This document shows, piece by piece, positions 21,116 through 25,678 of a stretch of 44,548 nt of DNA (the stretch's first letter is position 1; each line of letters begins with the position of its first letter). The translations under genes and the position numbers were made by a program. Source of the DNA: an uncultured Prochlorococcus sp. (GTDB lineage: Bacteria > Cyanobacteriota > Cyanobacteriia > PCC-6307 > Cyanobiaceae); the NCBI GenBank assembly GCA_902558895.1, contig CACEFS010000009.1, positions 1 to 44,548 on the forward strand, written 5' to 3'. Under the pieces are notes generated by a model. That model had not been told where the DNA came from. It did not search any database and worked only from the letters and a program-made list of their open reading frames with translations.

Positions 21116-22702
21116 ATGAGTCAAACATCTTTAAAAAAAGAACGAGATCCTTCAATATTAATTTTAGACTTCGGATCTCAATATTCTGAATTGATTGCAA
21201 GAAGAATTAGAGAAACTAATGTTTTTTCTCTTGTAGTAAGTAATTGTATTTCAATTGAGGACATTAATAATATTAACCCTAAAGGGATCATTTTGAGTGG
21301 TGGCCCAAATTCTGTATATGAACAAAATGCTCCTAAATGTGATGAAAAAATTTTTAATTTAGGAATTCCTATTCTCGGTATATGCTATGGAATGCAATTA
21401 ATGGTCAAAGAACTTGGAGGAACTGTTATTTCAGCAACAAATAAAGCTGAATATGGTAGAGCACCAATAAATATAGATCAAGAATCTGACCTTCTTTCTG
21501 ATGTAGAAGATAAATCAATAATGTGGATGAGTCATGGTGATTCAATTAATTGTTTGCCTGATGGATTTAATAAAATTGCTCATACCGAGAACACACTCCA
21601 TGCAGCAATTTCAAATGATGTGAAGAAATTATTTGGCGTACAATTTCATCCAGAAGTTATTCATTCAGAGTTTGGGATGACTGTAATTAAAAATTTTGTT
21701 TATACAATTTCTTGTTGCAAAGCTGATTGGACAACAGAAACCTATATAGAGGAAACTATTCCACGGATAAGAGAACAAGTTGGCAATAAAAAAGTTTTGC
21801 TTGCCTTGTCAGGAGGAGTTGATTCCTCAACTCTTGCTTTTCTTCTCAATCAAGCAATTGGAAATCAGCTTACATGCATGTTTATAGACCAAGGTTTCAT
21901 GAGAAAAGGTGAACCTGAATTTTTAATGAATTTTTTTGATAAGAAATTTCATATAAAAGTGGAATATATTAATGCAAGGGAAAGGTTTATTTCCAAATTA
22001 AAAGGTATTACTGATCCAGAAAAAAAAAGAAAAATTATTGGTGAAGAATTTATTAGAGTATTTGAAGAAGAAAGTAATAGATTAGGACCTTTTCAGTATT
22101 TAGCCCAAGGTACTCTTTATCCAGATGTTATTGAGAGTGCCGGCACTAATATTGATCCTAAGACAGGTGAAAGAATAGCTGTTAAAATAAAGAGTCATCA
22201 TAACGTGGGTGGGTTGCCAAAAGATTTACAATTTAAATTAGTTGAGCCATTAAGAAAACTTTTTAAAGATGAAGTCCGAAAAGTAGGAGCTGCTTTAGGT
22301 TTACCAGATGAAATTATAAAAAGGCATCCATTCCCAGGACCAGGATTAGCTATAAGAATTTTGGGTGAGGTTAATAATGAAAAACTGGATTGTTTAAGAG
22401 ATGCAGACTGGATAGTAAGAGACGAAATTAAAAAAGCAGGCCTTTATAATGATATTTGGCAGGCTTTTGCAGTATTGTTGCCAGTAAAAACTGTAGGAGT
22501 AATGGGTGATAAAAGGACTTATGCATGGCCAATAGTTTTACGTTGTGTTTCTAGTGAAGATGGCATGACGGCCGATTGGTCAAAAATTCCTTTTCAGATT
22601 TTGGAGAGGATTGCAAATAGAATCGTAAATGAAGTAATTTCGGTTAATAGAGTCGTATATGATATTACAAGCAAACCTCCTGGAACTATTGAGTGGGAAT
22701 AG
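21116..22702 (+). CDS. guaA: GMP synthase (glutamine-hydrolysing)
   Basis: GuaA converts XMP to GMP. The 528 residues comprise a class I glutamine amidotransferase domain ([11 protein letters not shown]; nucleophile Cys in [15 protein letters not shown]) and an ATP-pyrophosphatase domain with the P-loop [12 protein letters not shown], followed by the dimerisation domain ending K-P-P-G-T-I-E-W-E. The last 14 bases (22688-22701) are repeated exactly at 24874-24887, so the 3' end appears to be the integration site of the 2.2-kb element that follows. The reading frame is complete and of normal length. The final residues may therefore be supplied by the element. Confidence 0.97.
22688..22701 (+). 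repeat. left direct repeat (attL-like core), inside the guaA 3' end
   Basis: ATTGAGTGGGAATA, covering the codons for I-E-W-E and the first two bases of the TAG stop of guaA. An identical copy lies 2.19 kb downstream. It is the candidate recombination core on the left. Confidence 0.65.
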
Positions 22703-22739
22703 TCCAAGAGTAAAAACCTAGTTATAGTCTAAAAAACGT

Positions 22740-22761
22740 GTGCTCACCCGAAGATCACCCG
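22740..22761 (+). repeat. 11-base repeat pair, left cluster 1
   Basis: GTGCTCACCCG (22740-22750) and AAGATCACCCG (22751-22761) are two adjacent 11-base units sharing TCACCCG. They resemble the three right-end units. The cluster starts 38 bases after the guaA core repeat, which fits arm-type binding sites of a recombinase. The T-run that follows is not preceded by a hairpin, so I do not call a terminator. Confidence 0.6.
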
Positions 22762-22800
22762 TCTTTTTTTTTACCTATTTGCAATGGTTTTCAGAGGGTC

Positions 22801-22822
22801 ATGCTCACCCCAGTCTCACCCA
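22801..22822 (+). repeat. 11-base repeat pair, left cluster 2
   Basis: ATGCTCACCCC (22801-22811) and AGTCTCACCCA (22812-22822) are again two adjacent 11-base units. They begin 61 bases after the first pair begins, close to six helical turns, so all four left units would lie on about the same DNA face. The orientation is the same as in the other clusters. Confidence 0.6.
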
Positions 22823-22834
22823 GAGCACTGTAGG

Positions 22835-22850
22835 TTTCTCTATAGAGAAA
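22835..22850. promoter_or_regulatory. 16-base perfect palindrome upstream of the restriction gene
   Basis: TTTCTCTATAGAGAAA is perfectly self-complementary and lies about 100 bases before the endonuclease ATG. There is no T-run after it, so an operator is more likely than a terminator. No controller (C) protein gene is present in the cassette, so the binding protein is unknown. Confidence 0.45.
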
Positions 22851-22948
22851 TCGTAAATTATATTTTCATAAATTTTGTATTTATAAAAATTTTGCTCTAT
22901 TTAAATATTGTTTATATTATGGATTTCTTTTAAAATTCAGAATATTGA

Positions 22949-23808
22949 ATGTTAAATGTGACCAATCCTTTATTAGAAGTTTTTGGTTACCCGACTAATA
23001 ATCATTCTGAAGATGCCAAGAAGTCAAGATCAGATAAATTATGCCCTTTTGGCAATATAACTCCTAATTGTTCTAAAGATAAATTATCAGATCCATTGGG
23101 CGTTTGTAGTGTGCAGAATATTGACGATGCAGTAATTACTTGTCCCGTTAGATTTCGTGAAGATTGGTTGATCGCGCATGATGCTGCTAATTTTTTCTTT
23201 CAAAAGGGGACAAAATGGAAAATTTTGAAAGAGGTTCGTCTTAAAGATGCCTATGGTGTTTCAGCGGGAAATATTGATATCGTTCTTGTTTCATATGATC
23301 AATTTGGCAATATAGTTGATTTCGGTTCTCTTGAAATTCAAGCAGTCTATATTTCAGGAAATATTAGAAATCCTTTTGCTCGTTATATGACTGATCCTAT
23401 TAAATTCTCAAACTTGGATTGGTCAAAAGAAAAAAATTATCCAAGACCTGATTTTTTATCTTCTTCTAGAAAGCGATTAGCACCACAATTATTATTTAAA
23501 GGTGGAATTTTGAAATCATGGGGTAAAAAAAGTGCTGTAGCGCTTGACAGACCTTTCTATGAAACATTGCCAGATTTACAAGAAGTTGATCCTTCTGATG
23601 CTGATATATGTTGGATGGTATATGATCTCAAATTAAATCAAAATAAAGAAAATATAAACTCGTGCCTTATAAAAAAATTTATACTAAATTTGATGAAAGC
23701 ATTAAACAAATCACAATTGCTAAACCAGGAGATATTAATCAATTTAAGAATTTATTAAAATTAAAAATGCGCGATGGTTTAGATGTTACTGCCTACGAAG
23801 ATCAATGA
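22949..23808 (+). pseudogene. NotI-family type II restriction endonuclease, frameshifted near the 3' end
   Basis: From the ATG, 269 residues are read to a stop at 23758, but the last ~36 do not belong. The N-terminal part has four cysteines (C32, C41, C53, C65) in L-C-P-F-G-N, N-C-S, G-V-C-S and T-C-P-V-R-F contexts, matching the Cys4 iron-binding site of NotI. The core D110 with E129-x-Q131 in S-L-E129-I-Q131-A matches the D/E-x-Q catalytic pattern reported for NotI. At the A-run 23649-23652 a one-base deletion shifts the frame. Restoring one A reads E-K-Y-K-L-V-P-Y-K-K-I-Y-T-K-F and on to a TGA at 23806-23808, giving 286 residues close to EagI length. That stop overlaps the methyltransferase ATG at 23805 (ATGA), strong evidence for the original frame. 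Sequencing error is the alternative to mutation. Confidence 0.8.
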
Positions 23809-24683
23809 TTAGTAGTGTAAAAGAGAAAATTTTTAATCATCCCATTAATGTTTCTTCAGTTCCTCAATTAAGTATTTTTAGATATCCAGGTGGGAAGACT
23901 TGGTTTATTCCATACTTAAGAATATGGATGCAATCTCTCAATAAGGTTCCAGAAATTTTATATGAACCTTTTGCTGGTGGAGGAATAGTTTCTTTAACGA
24001 GTATTTCGGAAAATTTAGTAAAAAAAGTTCATGTAAATGAAATAGATCCTATGGTATCTGCTGTTTGGAAAACTTCTCTTTGCTCTGATTTTTCTTGGTT
24101 ATGTGAGCGAATAGTAAGTTTTGATATTAATTATTCAAATGTGATGGAAGTATTACAATCAGAACCTAAAAATACTAGAGAGCAATCATTCAAAACAATA
24201 CTTAAAAATAGATGCGCGCATGGAGGAATTCTTGCGGATGGTGGAGGTTTAATAAAACGTGGAGAAAATGGAAAAGGAATTTCCTCAAGATGGTATCCAA
24301 CTACTTTGGTCAGACGCATTCAGCGTATTTATTCAATGAGGTCAAGGATAATTTTCACTGAAGAGGATGGGTTAGATATTCTTCAGAAGGATTTAAATAA
24401 TGAAAGTGCGATTTATTTTTTAGATCCTCCTTACACTGCTGGTAAAAAAGGTAAAAGAGCAGGACGGAGACTTTATCGTTTCGCAGATTTAAATCACAAA
24501 AAATTATTTAAAATTTCCAGTCAAATAAAGGGTAACTTTTTGATGACATATGATGATGATTTTGAGGTTAAGGAACTTGCTAATTCCTACTCCATGTCAT
24601 CTGCGTTAATACCAATGAAAAATACACATAATTCAAACATGATAGAACTCCTGATATCAAAAGATTTGAATTGGATAAAATAA
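23805..24683 (+). CDS. D12-class (Dam-like) DNA adenine-N6 methyltransferase
   Basis: The 292-residue protein has the D12 class (alpha) motif order: F-R-Y-P-G-G-K31 (motif X), E-P-F-A-G-G-G60 (AdoMet-binding motif I, residues 54-60) and D207-P-P-Y (motif IV). The DPPY form and class point to adenine N6 methylation. It is the modification partner of the preceding endonuclease gene: its ATG overlaps the ancestral stop of that gene (ATGA), implying coupled translation. Its frame is intact. The recognition sequence is unknown. NotI's site has no adenine, so the pair should recognise a different site. Confidence 0.88.
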   Translation: MISSVKEKIFNHPINVSSVPQLSIFRYPGGKTWFIPYLRIWMQSLNKVPEILYEPFAGGGIVSLTSISENLVKKVHVNEIDPMVSAVWKTSLCSDFSWLCERIVSFDINYSNVMEVLQSEPKNTREQSFKTILKNRCAHGGILADGGGLIKRGENGKGISSRWYPTTLVRRIQRIYSMRSRIIFTEEDGLDILQKDLNNESAIYFLDPPYTAGKKGKRAGRRLYRFADLNHKKLFKISSQIKGNFLMTYDDDFEVKELANSYSMSSALIPMKNTHNSNMIELLISKDLNWIK

Positions 24684-24765
24684 TAGTTTATAAATATTTT
24701 GAAACGCATTCTCTACAAAATAATCGTATAACGACGTTTTTTGAAAGTATTATTGTCAGACATCT

Positions 24766-24798
24766 ATGCTCACCTCATGCTCACCTCATGCTCACCCA
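24766..24798 (+). repeat. three tandem 11-base repeats, right cluster
   Basis: ATGCTCACCTC (24766-24776), ATGCTCACCTC (24777-24787) and ATGCTCACCCA (24788-24798) are head-to-tail with no spacer. The first two are identical. They lie 75 bases inside the right core repeat and share the unit and orientation of the left clusters. Directly repeated units of about one helical turn flanking a core are the arrangement of arm-type sites in phage attachment regions. The remainder of the 275-base gap 24684-24958 shows no gene. Confidence 0.75.
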
Positions 24799-24873
24799 AT
24801 AAAAGTCTGTTAGTATGACTCCAAGTATCCGTTGCAATAACTGATGTTTTCTTTTTCTTTTAGAACTAATCCC

Positions 24874-24887
24874 ATTGAGTGGGAATA
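24874..24887 (+). repeat. right direct repeat (attR-like core)
   Basis: ATTGAGTGGGAATA is identical to the guaA end at 22688-22701. Here it is followed by AATAAAC rather than GTCCAAG, giving a TAA instead of TAG after I-E-W-E. I infer that this is the original chromosomal guaA terminus displaced by the insertion. Confidence 0.65.
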
Positions 24888-24958: not shown

Positions 24959-25678
24959 ATGAGCGAGATTATAAAATTAAGTCGATCTACTATTGAGAAA
25001 TATCTAAGTTGTCCAAGATGTTGTGTACTTGATAAAAAATATCAAATAAAACCACCATCATTACCGTTTACTTTAAATATTGCTGTAGATAATTTATGTA
25101 AAAATGAATTTGATTACTACAGAAGAATTCAAGAGCCACATCCTTTATTTATTGAACATGGTATTGATGCTGTTCCTTTCAAACATAAAGATTTAGAACG
25201 TTGGAGAAGTAATTTTCAAGGCATAAGATATAGGTCGATTGAACATAATTATGATTTTGGTGGGGCTGTGGATGATATTTGGCAGAAAAAAAATGGCGAC
25301 CTTATTATTATTGATGTAAAAGCTACATCTAGAAATAATTTTGATTGGTCTGAGACTTTTAATAAATACGAATATGCAAGAGCTTATAAGAGACAATTAG
25401 AAATGTATCAGTGGTTATTTAAAAAAAACGGTTTTAAAGTATCTAAAGAAGCTTATCTTTTATATTTCAACGGAAAGAAAAATGAAGAGTTATTTAATAA
25501 CCAATTAAATTTTGATGTACATCTAATTAAATTAGATTGCTCTACTTCTTGGGTAGAAAATAAGATAATTGATACTGTCAATTTATTACGTTCTGATGTT
25601 TTTCCTAAACCGTCATTGAATTGTGAATATTGTAATTATTTGAAAAAGCGTTGGCGGCTATCAATGACTGAATATTAA
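24959..25678 (+). CDS. PD-(D/E)XK nuclease superfamily protein, RecB/Cas4-like with cysteine pairs
   Basis: The 239-residue protein carries the RecB-type nuclease core: G-G-A-V-D105-D106-I-W, then L-I-I-I-D119-V-K121-A-T (D-x-K catalytic pattern) and Q-L-E-M-Y-Q-W (the QxxxY motif). Cysteines C18, C21 and C22 in Y-L-S-C-P-R-C-C and C222, C225 in N-C-E-Y-C-N flank the domain, as in Cas4 and AddB nucleases with Fe-S clusters. No CRISPR repeats or other cas genes are present, so it is a stand-alone member. It begins 71 bases outside the right att-like repeat. It may be a resident gene, or part of an older accessory segment at this site. The ATG at 24959 is the only sensible start. Confidence 0.82.
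   Translation: MSEIIKLSRSTIEKYLSCPRCCVLDKKYQIKPPSLPFTLNIAVDNLCKNEFDYYRRIQEPHPLFIEHGIDAVPFKHKDLERWRSNFQGIRYRSIEHNYDFGGAVDDIWQKKNGDLIIIDVKATSRNNFDWSETFNKYEYARAYKRQLEMYQWLFKKNGFKVSKEAYLLYFNGKKNEELFNNQLNFDVHLIKLDCSTSWVENKIIDTVNLLRSDVFPKPSLNCEYCNYLKKRWRLSMTEY

Follow-up and report, generated by a model that had tools for sequence, protein, structure and literature searches.

How can a segment of about 2.19 kb that holds a restriction-modification pair and no recognisable integrase come to lie at the 3′ end of guaA? The question is raised by an uncultured Prochlorococcus sp. whose guaA locus lies on contig CACEFS010000009.1 of assembly GCA_902558895.1 (1.15 Mb, 70.5% complete); the window analysed here is this contig, C9, at its full length of 44,548 nucleotides. 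The evidence set out below makes it likely that the segment is a non-autonomous, guaA-specific element, for which guaA-specific integrases would have acted in trans.

The guaA 3′ end and its element

The guaA gene (GMP synthase, 528 aa, plus strand, called from its open reading frame (ORF) and translation) spans positions 21116 to 22702, and its 3′ end is the integration site. The left att core, ATTGAGTGGGAATA, lies at 22688–22701 and overlaps the guaA stop codon. The right att core is an exact repeat of it on the same strand at 24874–24887, with GAGTGGGA of this copy 82 bp ahead of the ATG of the next gene, as at empty sites. The window contains two exact copies of the core; 0.03 copies were expected at up to one mismatch, and none of 100 shuffles reached two. 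The same 14-mer is present in eight other genomes that bear the arm motif of the window.

Between the cores lie seven 11-bp units, all on the plus strand and each group at a similar place in relatives. On the left, a first arm-type pair, GTGTGCTCACC CGAAGATCACC, occupies 22738–22759 (units 22738–22748 and 22749–22759) and a second, TCATGCTCACC CCAGTCTCACC, occupies 22799–22820 (units 22799–22809 and 22810–22820); on the right, the triplet CTATGCTCACC TCATGCTCACC TCATGCTCACC occupies 24764–24796 (units 24764–24774, 24775–24785 and 24786–24796). In the wider set of elements described below, autocorrelation peaked at 11 bp in both ends. The string TGCTCACC occurs five times in the window, where 0.42 copies were expected, and all five are inside arm units; likewise, the four copies of GCTCACCN6TCACC in the window's own assembly are all at this element. 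An earlier note on this DNA had described two exact 14-base copies of the guaA end around the restriction-modification pair, with four tandem repeats on the left in two pairs and three on the right in one orientation. This anatomy was borne out, two of the four left units being variants (GATCACC and GTCTCACC). The spacings that the note gave for the joined form (75, 38 and 39 bp) needed correction to 77, 36 and 39 bp.

The cargo consists of a NotI-family restriction endonuclease gene at 22949–23758 (plus strand; PF12183, E 4.1e-58; PADLOC REase_II, 1.9e-6) and a gene for a D12-class adenine-N6 DNA methyltransferase at 23805–24683 (plus strand; PF02086, E 1.5e-8; PADLOC PD-Lambda-5_B, 2.6e-41, and MTase_II, 6.6e-28). 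In agreement with the earlier note, no integrase was recognised between the cores, either by the ORF and Pfam scan, which returned only these two genes, or by an integrase profile. Pfam and PADLOC recognised in the element no packaging or helper-interference genes, a trait of satellites such as phage-inducible chromosomal islands (PICIs). A transposon with terminal repeats, of which Tn7-like elements are an example, was considered and rejected, because the units at the two ends all point the same way and the flanking repeat duplicates the terminus of guaA.

We read 119 Prochlorococcus guaA flanks, a non-random sample comprising the window's own genome, eight genomes picked for the window motif and others taken by rank of GuaA similarity; island searches went no further than the neighbour gene or the limit of the extracted sequence. 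That neighbour is a PD-(D/E)XK-family gene (PF12705, 6.1e-10), which in the window lies outside the element, to the right of the site, at 24959–25678 on the plus strand. It was found downstream of guaA in 104 of the 119 flanks, and the remaining 15 end short of it. Empty sites, which the earlier note had proposed to look for in relatives, exist in 35 flanks, where a single core is followed directly by the neighbour gene; a search for the strings of all arm classes found none between core and ATG in any of the 35. The other 84 flanks were not empty. The distance from core to ATG is 81–87 bp in 34 of the 35 empty sites and 82 bp in the window after in-silico excision, and excision raised the identity of the window site to each of the empty sites from 0.577–0.646 to 0.654–0.885.

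The same flanks contained 64 two-core segments, 46 of them longer than 400 bp (median 2.07 kb, range 0.7–8.6 kb) and 18 shorter than 300 bp. At least two two-core elements were present in 10 genomes, and at least two motif classes within one array in 13. No integrase is encoded by 44 of the 46 longer elements. In marine picocyanobacteria the 3′ end of guaA is thus a hotspot for integration, where cargo-only elements are the rule.

Among the short segments we noted 17 mini-elements with 138–148 bp between two cores, which are too short for a gene, mostly carry one arm pair and belong to several motif classes (G014, G019, G037, G063, G134, G150, G162, G163, G179, G191, G216, G224, G229, G245, G246.2, G247 and G253).

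Integrase-bearing relatives and arm motifs

The earlier note had suggested searching for the 11-base repeats beside a tyrosine recombinase and a guaA core. This combination was found in Prochlorococcus AG-347-G20 (G178; integrase gene at L176:1418–2788), where the tyrosine recombinase P0005 is encoded in a segment with arms of the window's own class (CTCACC). The G178 array runs from guaA to a core that precedes the usual neighbour gene, and its internal cores suggest three tandem elements. Members of the P0005 family were present in 5 of 266 genomes of the genus, in all five directly after guaA and with arms. In GTDB contigs the family was found at seven loci, all seven after guaA (Prochlorococcus AG-347-G20, AH-716-K03, AG-402-M15, AG-409-O23, AG-355-P18 and AG-321-E21, and Synechococcus AG-679-A04); five of these loci are on the same contigs as the genus-genome matches. 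A search of 400 genomes of the taxonomic family gave 16 integrase matches, the ten strongest of which are at guaA; these ten include G114 again, two integrases equal to those of AG-409-O23 and AG-679-A04, one fragment and one gene with an internal stop. No guaA end was found within 1.5 kb on each side of the six weaker matches. A profile built from seven integrases and run against 124 guaA islands matched only those seven, which leaves two carriers among the 119 genomes (G148 and G178); other islands gave no match at E up to 0.01 among stop-to-stop peptides of at least 40 aa. The more distant or broken integrase relatives, in six genomes of the taxonomic family and with no guaA end within 1.5 kb, are L193–L198; in one of them (L198) 11-bp tandem pairs (GGTAGCA) lie upstream.

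The six integrase-bearing elements with two cores measure 4.6 to 8.8 kb, and such elements also occur in tandems (G186, G114 and G183). Their integrases match PF00589, and P0005 matches phrog_1 at 6e-25. The predicted structure (pLDDT 74.6) resembles Tn1549 Int (E 3.8e-10) and lambda Int (8.3e-8), with low TM-scores over the whole chain, and places a putative strand-rich domain at the N-terminus. Most of the seven integrase-bearing elements share a 208–266-aa protein (6/7), a 314–327-aa protein (6/7) and a homologue of a Resolvase-domain protein, a small serine recombinase (5/7); a DUF5906-like helicase occurs in three and is below the Pfam cut-off in G178. By eye, the 208–266-aa protein (L032:3442–4200 and homologues in six of the seven) carries an HxH motif (HLHILME), and it is perhaps an HUH replication or nicking protein; its structure model is weak (pLDDT 53), and sequence and structure searches returned two IS200-type transposase entries (ISDra2 and others) among many unrelated ferredoxin-like folds. 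In the G186 array, the second element (L177, from about 18115) has G114-class arms; behind them, a short frame that by eye resembles the start of an integrase runs into a stop and is possibly a decayed integrase.

The exact paired motif of the window was present in 9 of the 266 genus genomes, namely its own and eight others, and the reversed control gave one match. In all nine it belongs to an array beginning at the guaA core. Next to these arms, GuaA is 91–98% identical in seven of the eight relatives, the eighth (G246) being placed by its guaA flank. Cargo differs in all eight and includes an S-adenosylmethionine-dependent methyltransferase (G025), an HNH nuclease (G046), a protein without a confident family (G172) and a 318-aa protein whose homologue in G178 is a predicted methyltransferase (G246). 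The NotI-family gene was found only in the window's own genome among the 266. Relatives that lack the restriction-modification genes and still carry the repeats, which the earlier note had named as an outcome against its reading, do therefore occur, but with other cargo between the ends, and empty sites are free of repeats; together these observations indicate a family with exchangeable cargo. A second motif, GTTTCCCTCAGGTTTCCCTC, was present in 22 of the 266 genomes, with no control matches. In all 11 of these genomes in which the position of guaA was checked, it lies at most 6 kb downstream of guaA on the same strand; one of the 11 (G252) has two extra matches on another contig.

Most elements of the family share a layout. 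A core stands at either end; of the two left pairs, one is located near +50 and the other near +110 to +120, and a pair or triplet on the right precedes the right core by about 98 bp. The TTTTACGTG class departs from this in having only one unit as its first left site. We sorted the arm motifs into 14 classes, namely CTCACC (the class of the window), TTTCCCTCA, TTTCCCGTG, TTTCACATG/ACG, TTTCACGTG, TTACACGTG, TTTGTCACG, TTTGTTGCG, TTTGTCGCA, TTTTACGTG, ATCACACA, ATCTCACG, CATCGTACT and, in a Synechococcus, CTACCCC; GGTTTCCCTC is an example of arms of a class other than the window's. The two ends of an element tend to agree with each other. Among 55 two-core elements longer than 400 bp, 44 of the 55 pairs of ends from the same element shared at least three 8-mers, compared with 434 of 2970 pairs from different elements, and none of 20,000 permutations reached the observed sum. 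The left and right motif classes agreed in 32 of the 33 elements classed at both ends, the other 22 having no class at one or both ends. The exception is the first element of G146, whose left and right arms belong to different classes, a state that could arise by recombination between tandem elements. In attP of the lambda and Tn916 type, the core lies between two arms with tandem short sites. The proposal that the window's repeats have an attP-like layout is supported by the layout of the family, by the concordance of left and right ends and by the presence at guaA of integrases with such arms, and the predicted integrase fold is similar. Unlike in those systems, co-resident elements at guaA have different arm motifs while using a single attB in common.

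Lambda integrase has its arm-binding domain at the N-terminus. Across 13 integrases and their own arm units, motif distance correlated with the distance between N-terminal domains, which span about residues 1–95 (r 0.81, 0/10,000 permutations). When nine non-redundant integrases were used, the correlation for the N-terminal domain was 0.75 (p 0.0008) and those for the other domains were not significant. Controlling for the catalytic domain left a partial correlation of 0.72 (p 0.0002, n=13) or 0.71 (p 0.0026, n=9), and a phase-free comparison gave similar values. This set leaves out a fragment (G475) and, as duplicates of the integrases of L179 and L180, those of G276 and G555. Covariation of this kind is the expected outcome if the N-terminal domain reads the 11-bp units, and we infer from it that this domain binds them.

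We propose that the integrase would come from a related element, arriving with that element or briefly resident in the cell. The N-terminal domain of the enzyme would bind the 11-bp arm units, the joined ends (attP) would be paired with the guaA core (attB), and the element would integrate; elements without an integrase would thereby use in trans the enzyme of larger guaA elements. Arm motifs would act as a code, which differs from lineage to lineage, is shared by the two ends in most elements and varies together with the N-terminal domain of the integrase. Tandem arrays would build up because each integration leaves a core. Catalysis in trans, the specificity of the arm code and this route of entry into cells are what we infer from the comparisons above. 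A stronger version, which we hold to be possible rather than probable, is an integrase-addressed cassette system of marine picocyanobacteria with guaA as its one site, in which many small cargo-only parcels with a shared core would be served by mutually orthogonal lambda-type integrases whose N-terminal domains read different 11-bp arm codes, one helper per label. Were it true, the system would parallel the integron, but with double-stranded, arm-coded cassettes.

Several observations weigh against action in trans through an arm code. No circular junction was seen, the analysis covering assembled sequence. No guaA-family integrase was found in the window's own assembly, 70.5% complete, by a P0005 search at E up to 1e-12, and only one of the eight other genomes with the window motif (G178) carries a family integrase. 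For 8 of the 13 motif classes of the Prochlorococcus flanks, no integrase-bearing element was seen in a Prochlorococcus-named record, although one of these eight (TTTCACGTG) has such an element in another genus (L188). The 14 motif classes were defined after the motifs had been seen, and 45 of 136 parsed segments carry no recognised class. Fewer than three 8-mers are shared between the ends in 11 of the 55 elements, several of which have a missing or foreign end; one low scorer, in G183, is an integrase-bearing segment whose right end is like another class. The covariation set comprises 13 integrases, 9 of them non-redundant, with units phased by hand, and with all 13 the core-binding region (r 0.46, 18/10,000) and the catalytic domain (r 0.53, 12/10,000) also gave significant correlations. 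Finally, backbone identity could be compared for 13 similar element pairs and is higher than that of the element in 7 of them, which slightly lowers our confidence in the overall reading.

Movement of the elements and other explanations

One cargo-only element has moved between hosts as a unit. The elements G046.2 and G138.1 are 98.5% identical over about 2.03 kb, whereas the neighbouring backbone is 86.5% identical. In G046 the shared element takes the second place of the array, behind another element, and in G138 it is the one next to guaA, so that its left neighbours differ. These data show between-host spread of at least one cargo-only element. Among the 13 pairs, three exceed the backbone by more than 5 points (G046.2/G138.1, G012.1/G016.1 and G114.3/G251.2) and three are slightly above it. 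We did not count G012.1/G016.1 (95.2% versus 87.1%) as transfer of a whole element, as the similarity does not run from core to core. Because seven pairs are less alike than their backbone, most sharing is not recent transfer. Possible movement of cargo between arm codes was noted for one ORF (G164.1/G043.3, 95.6%); the pair G089/G201 was not used, its class call being uncertain. A collection of viral contigs gave no relative or match in six scans (P0005, A1, the right-arm 19-mer, a pattern of core plus left end, and two other arm motifs), and the only matches to P0005 among phages, of about 24%, came from nine Thermus phage records; the elements may nevertheless be packaged. Three tyrosine recombinases of the window's own genome (L001–L003) were considered as a resident helper and rejected, since the P0005 search at E up to 1e-12 found no member of the guaA family in this assembly and no GCTCACCN6TCACC lies near them. 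The region of L001 and L003 (G000:C2:7860–15175) is a further tyrosine-recombinase region that, by eye, adjoins a helicase-like ORF.

Could the cargo-only elements instead be remnants in which the integrase was deleted and the ends persist with no further site-specific movement, in the manner of cis-mobilizable elements (CIMEs)? Decay of this kind is somewhat unlikely. It would account for the elements with missing or mismatched ends (the discordant G146, and G140.1, G113 and G188.1 among the 11 low scorers), for the rarity of integrases at guaA (2 of 119 genomes), for the integrase-like codons seen by eye before a stop in G186, and for the seven pairs that are less alike than their backbone. 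However, many of the elements without an integrase keep arm pairs at both ends, other islands contain no match to the integrase profile at the threshold given above, and one such element is shared at 98.5% identity at different array positions. That cargo is swapped mainly by homologous recombination, through the flanking guaA and neighbour genes or the tandem att repeats, with the 11-bp repeats as passengers, we regard as decidedly unlikely. The flanks are conserved, chimaeric elements exist (G146, G113 and G183.1), and the block of similarity between G046 and G138 runs on for about 50 bp past the right core. Against it stand the different left neighbours of that same block, and the genomes G063 and G089, which are 97.1% identical across the 5.2 kb compared and differ by one 139-bp core-to-core unit; moreover, homologous recombination predicts neither repeats of period 11 nor their covariation with the integrase N-terminal domain.

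The repeats themselves might be regulatory or terminator elements, or sites for host factors or an excisionase, rather than integrase arm sites. Excisionase and bending-protein sites are also located in the attP arms of lambda-type systems, and the arm role is here a prediction. We nonetheless judge this highly improbable, since the motif changes with the integrase N-terminal domain and less with the other domains, the distances to the core are similar on both sides, and the repeats are absent from the 35 empty sites. It is also very unlikely that the element belongs, as a small representative, to the tycheposons or to some other picocyanobacterial group already described. Tycheposons (Hackl et al. 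2023) occur in the same genus as variable cargo islands, and a tyrosine recombinase is present in them as in the larger guaA elements. According to the part of the literature available to us, they measure 4–200 kb and lie at tRNA genes (PMC10872708), whereas the window element measures 2.19 kb, is at guaA and has no recognised recombinase, and no tRNA gene was found within the window. The element of Flamholz et al. resembles the larger guaA elements in its tyrosine integrase, a small serine recombinase nearby, restriction-modification cargo and occurrence in Prochlorococcus and Synechococcus; in the available portion of that paper, its integrases are at tRNA-Phe or tRNA-Cys and were missed by PHROGs profiles, whereas P0005 matches phrog_1 (PMC10187409).

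Known systems and remaining observations

Several known systems come close to the window element, as far as the consulted passages of the cited papers describe them. CIMEs are att-flanked elements without an integrase that accrete in tandem with integrase-bearing elements of the ICESt1 type (PMC5704250). Like them, the window element lacks integration genes, retains both att ends and is site-specific. Unlike CIMEs as described there, cargo-only forms at guaA are more numerous than integrase-bearing ones, and a complete arm set is retained in many of them; the ten ORFs scanned in the integrase-bearing element L032 included no recognisable conjugation gene. Insertion at guaA is itself known from other bacteria. 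The closest parallel in site is GIsul2, whose integrase was shown experimentally to move a cargo unit, the CR2-sul2 unit, between att sites at the guaA 3′ end (PMC9376610). There too the cargo unit is moved by the integrase of a larger element, but the system is proteobacterial and consists of one composite island with three att sites, and the available part of the report describes no diversified arm code (PMC9376610). Cassettes are also added at one conserved site in the additive flexible islands of Alteromonas, which gain and lose them at tRNA genes (PMC4119200), and copies of the tRNA-Lys end recur in fGI-2 of the Methylophilaceae (PMC10872708); these islands differ in their tRNA sites, and no arm-type repeat code is described in the parts of the two papers available (PMC4119200, PMC10872708). 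No description of guaA-site elements in Prochlorococcus was found in the literature, judged mostly by titles and the openings of abstracts and with the tycheposon paper (Hackl 2023) outside this coverage. Helper-dependent, att-flanked elements are thus known, and what is new is that cargo-only forms predominate and that the arm code has diversified among elements using the same site.

Such elements would give streamlined Prochlorococcus cells a concrete route, open to testing, for the exchange of small cargo (in this case a restriction-modification pair) without a recombinase for each parcel, and they suggest that a defence module of gene size may be a mobile unit complete in itself. The natural series of integrase N-terminal domains paired with arm motifs could in addition reveal the arm-recognition code of tyrosine integrases.

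The endonuclease gene of the window contains an A7 run at 23671–23677, and a frame shift at this run yields a C-terminus whose stop overlaps the start of the methyltransferase gene (ATGA). The 3′ end of the gene is therefore probably frameshifted as assembled, either in the genome itself or through an assembly error. Among the cargo ORFs of the 136 parsed segments, 55 form one loose cluster, TPR-like as judged by eye, with members in many motif classes.

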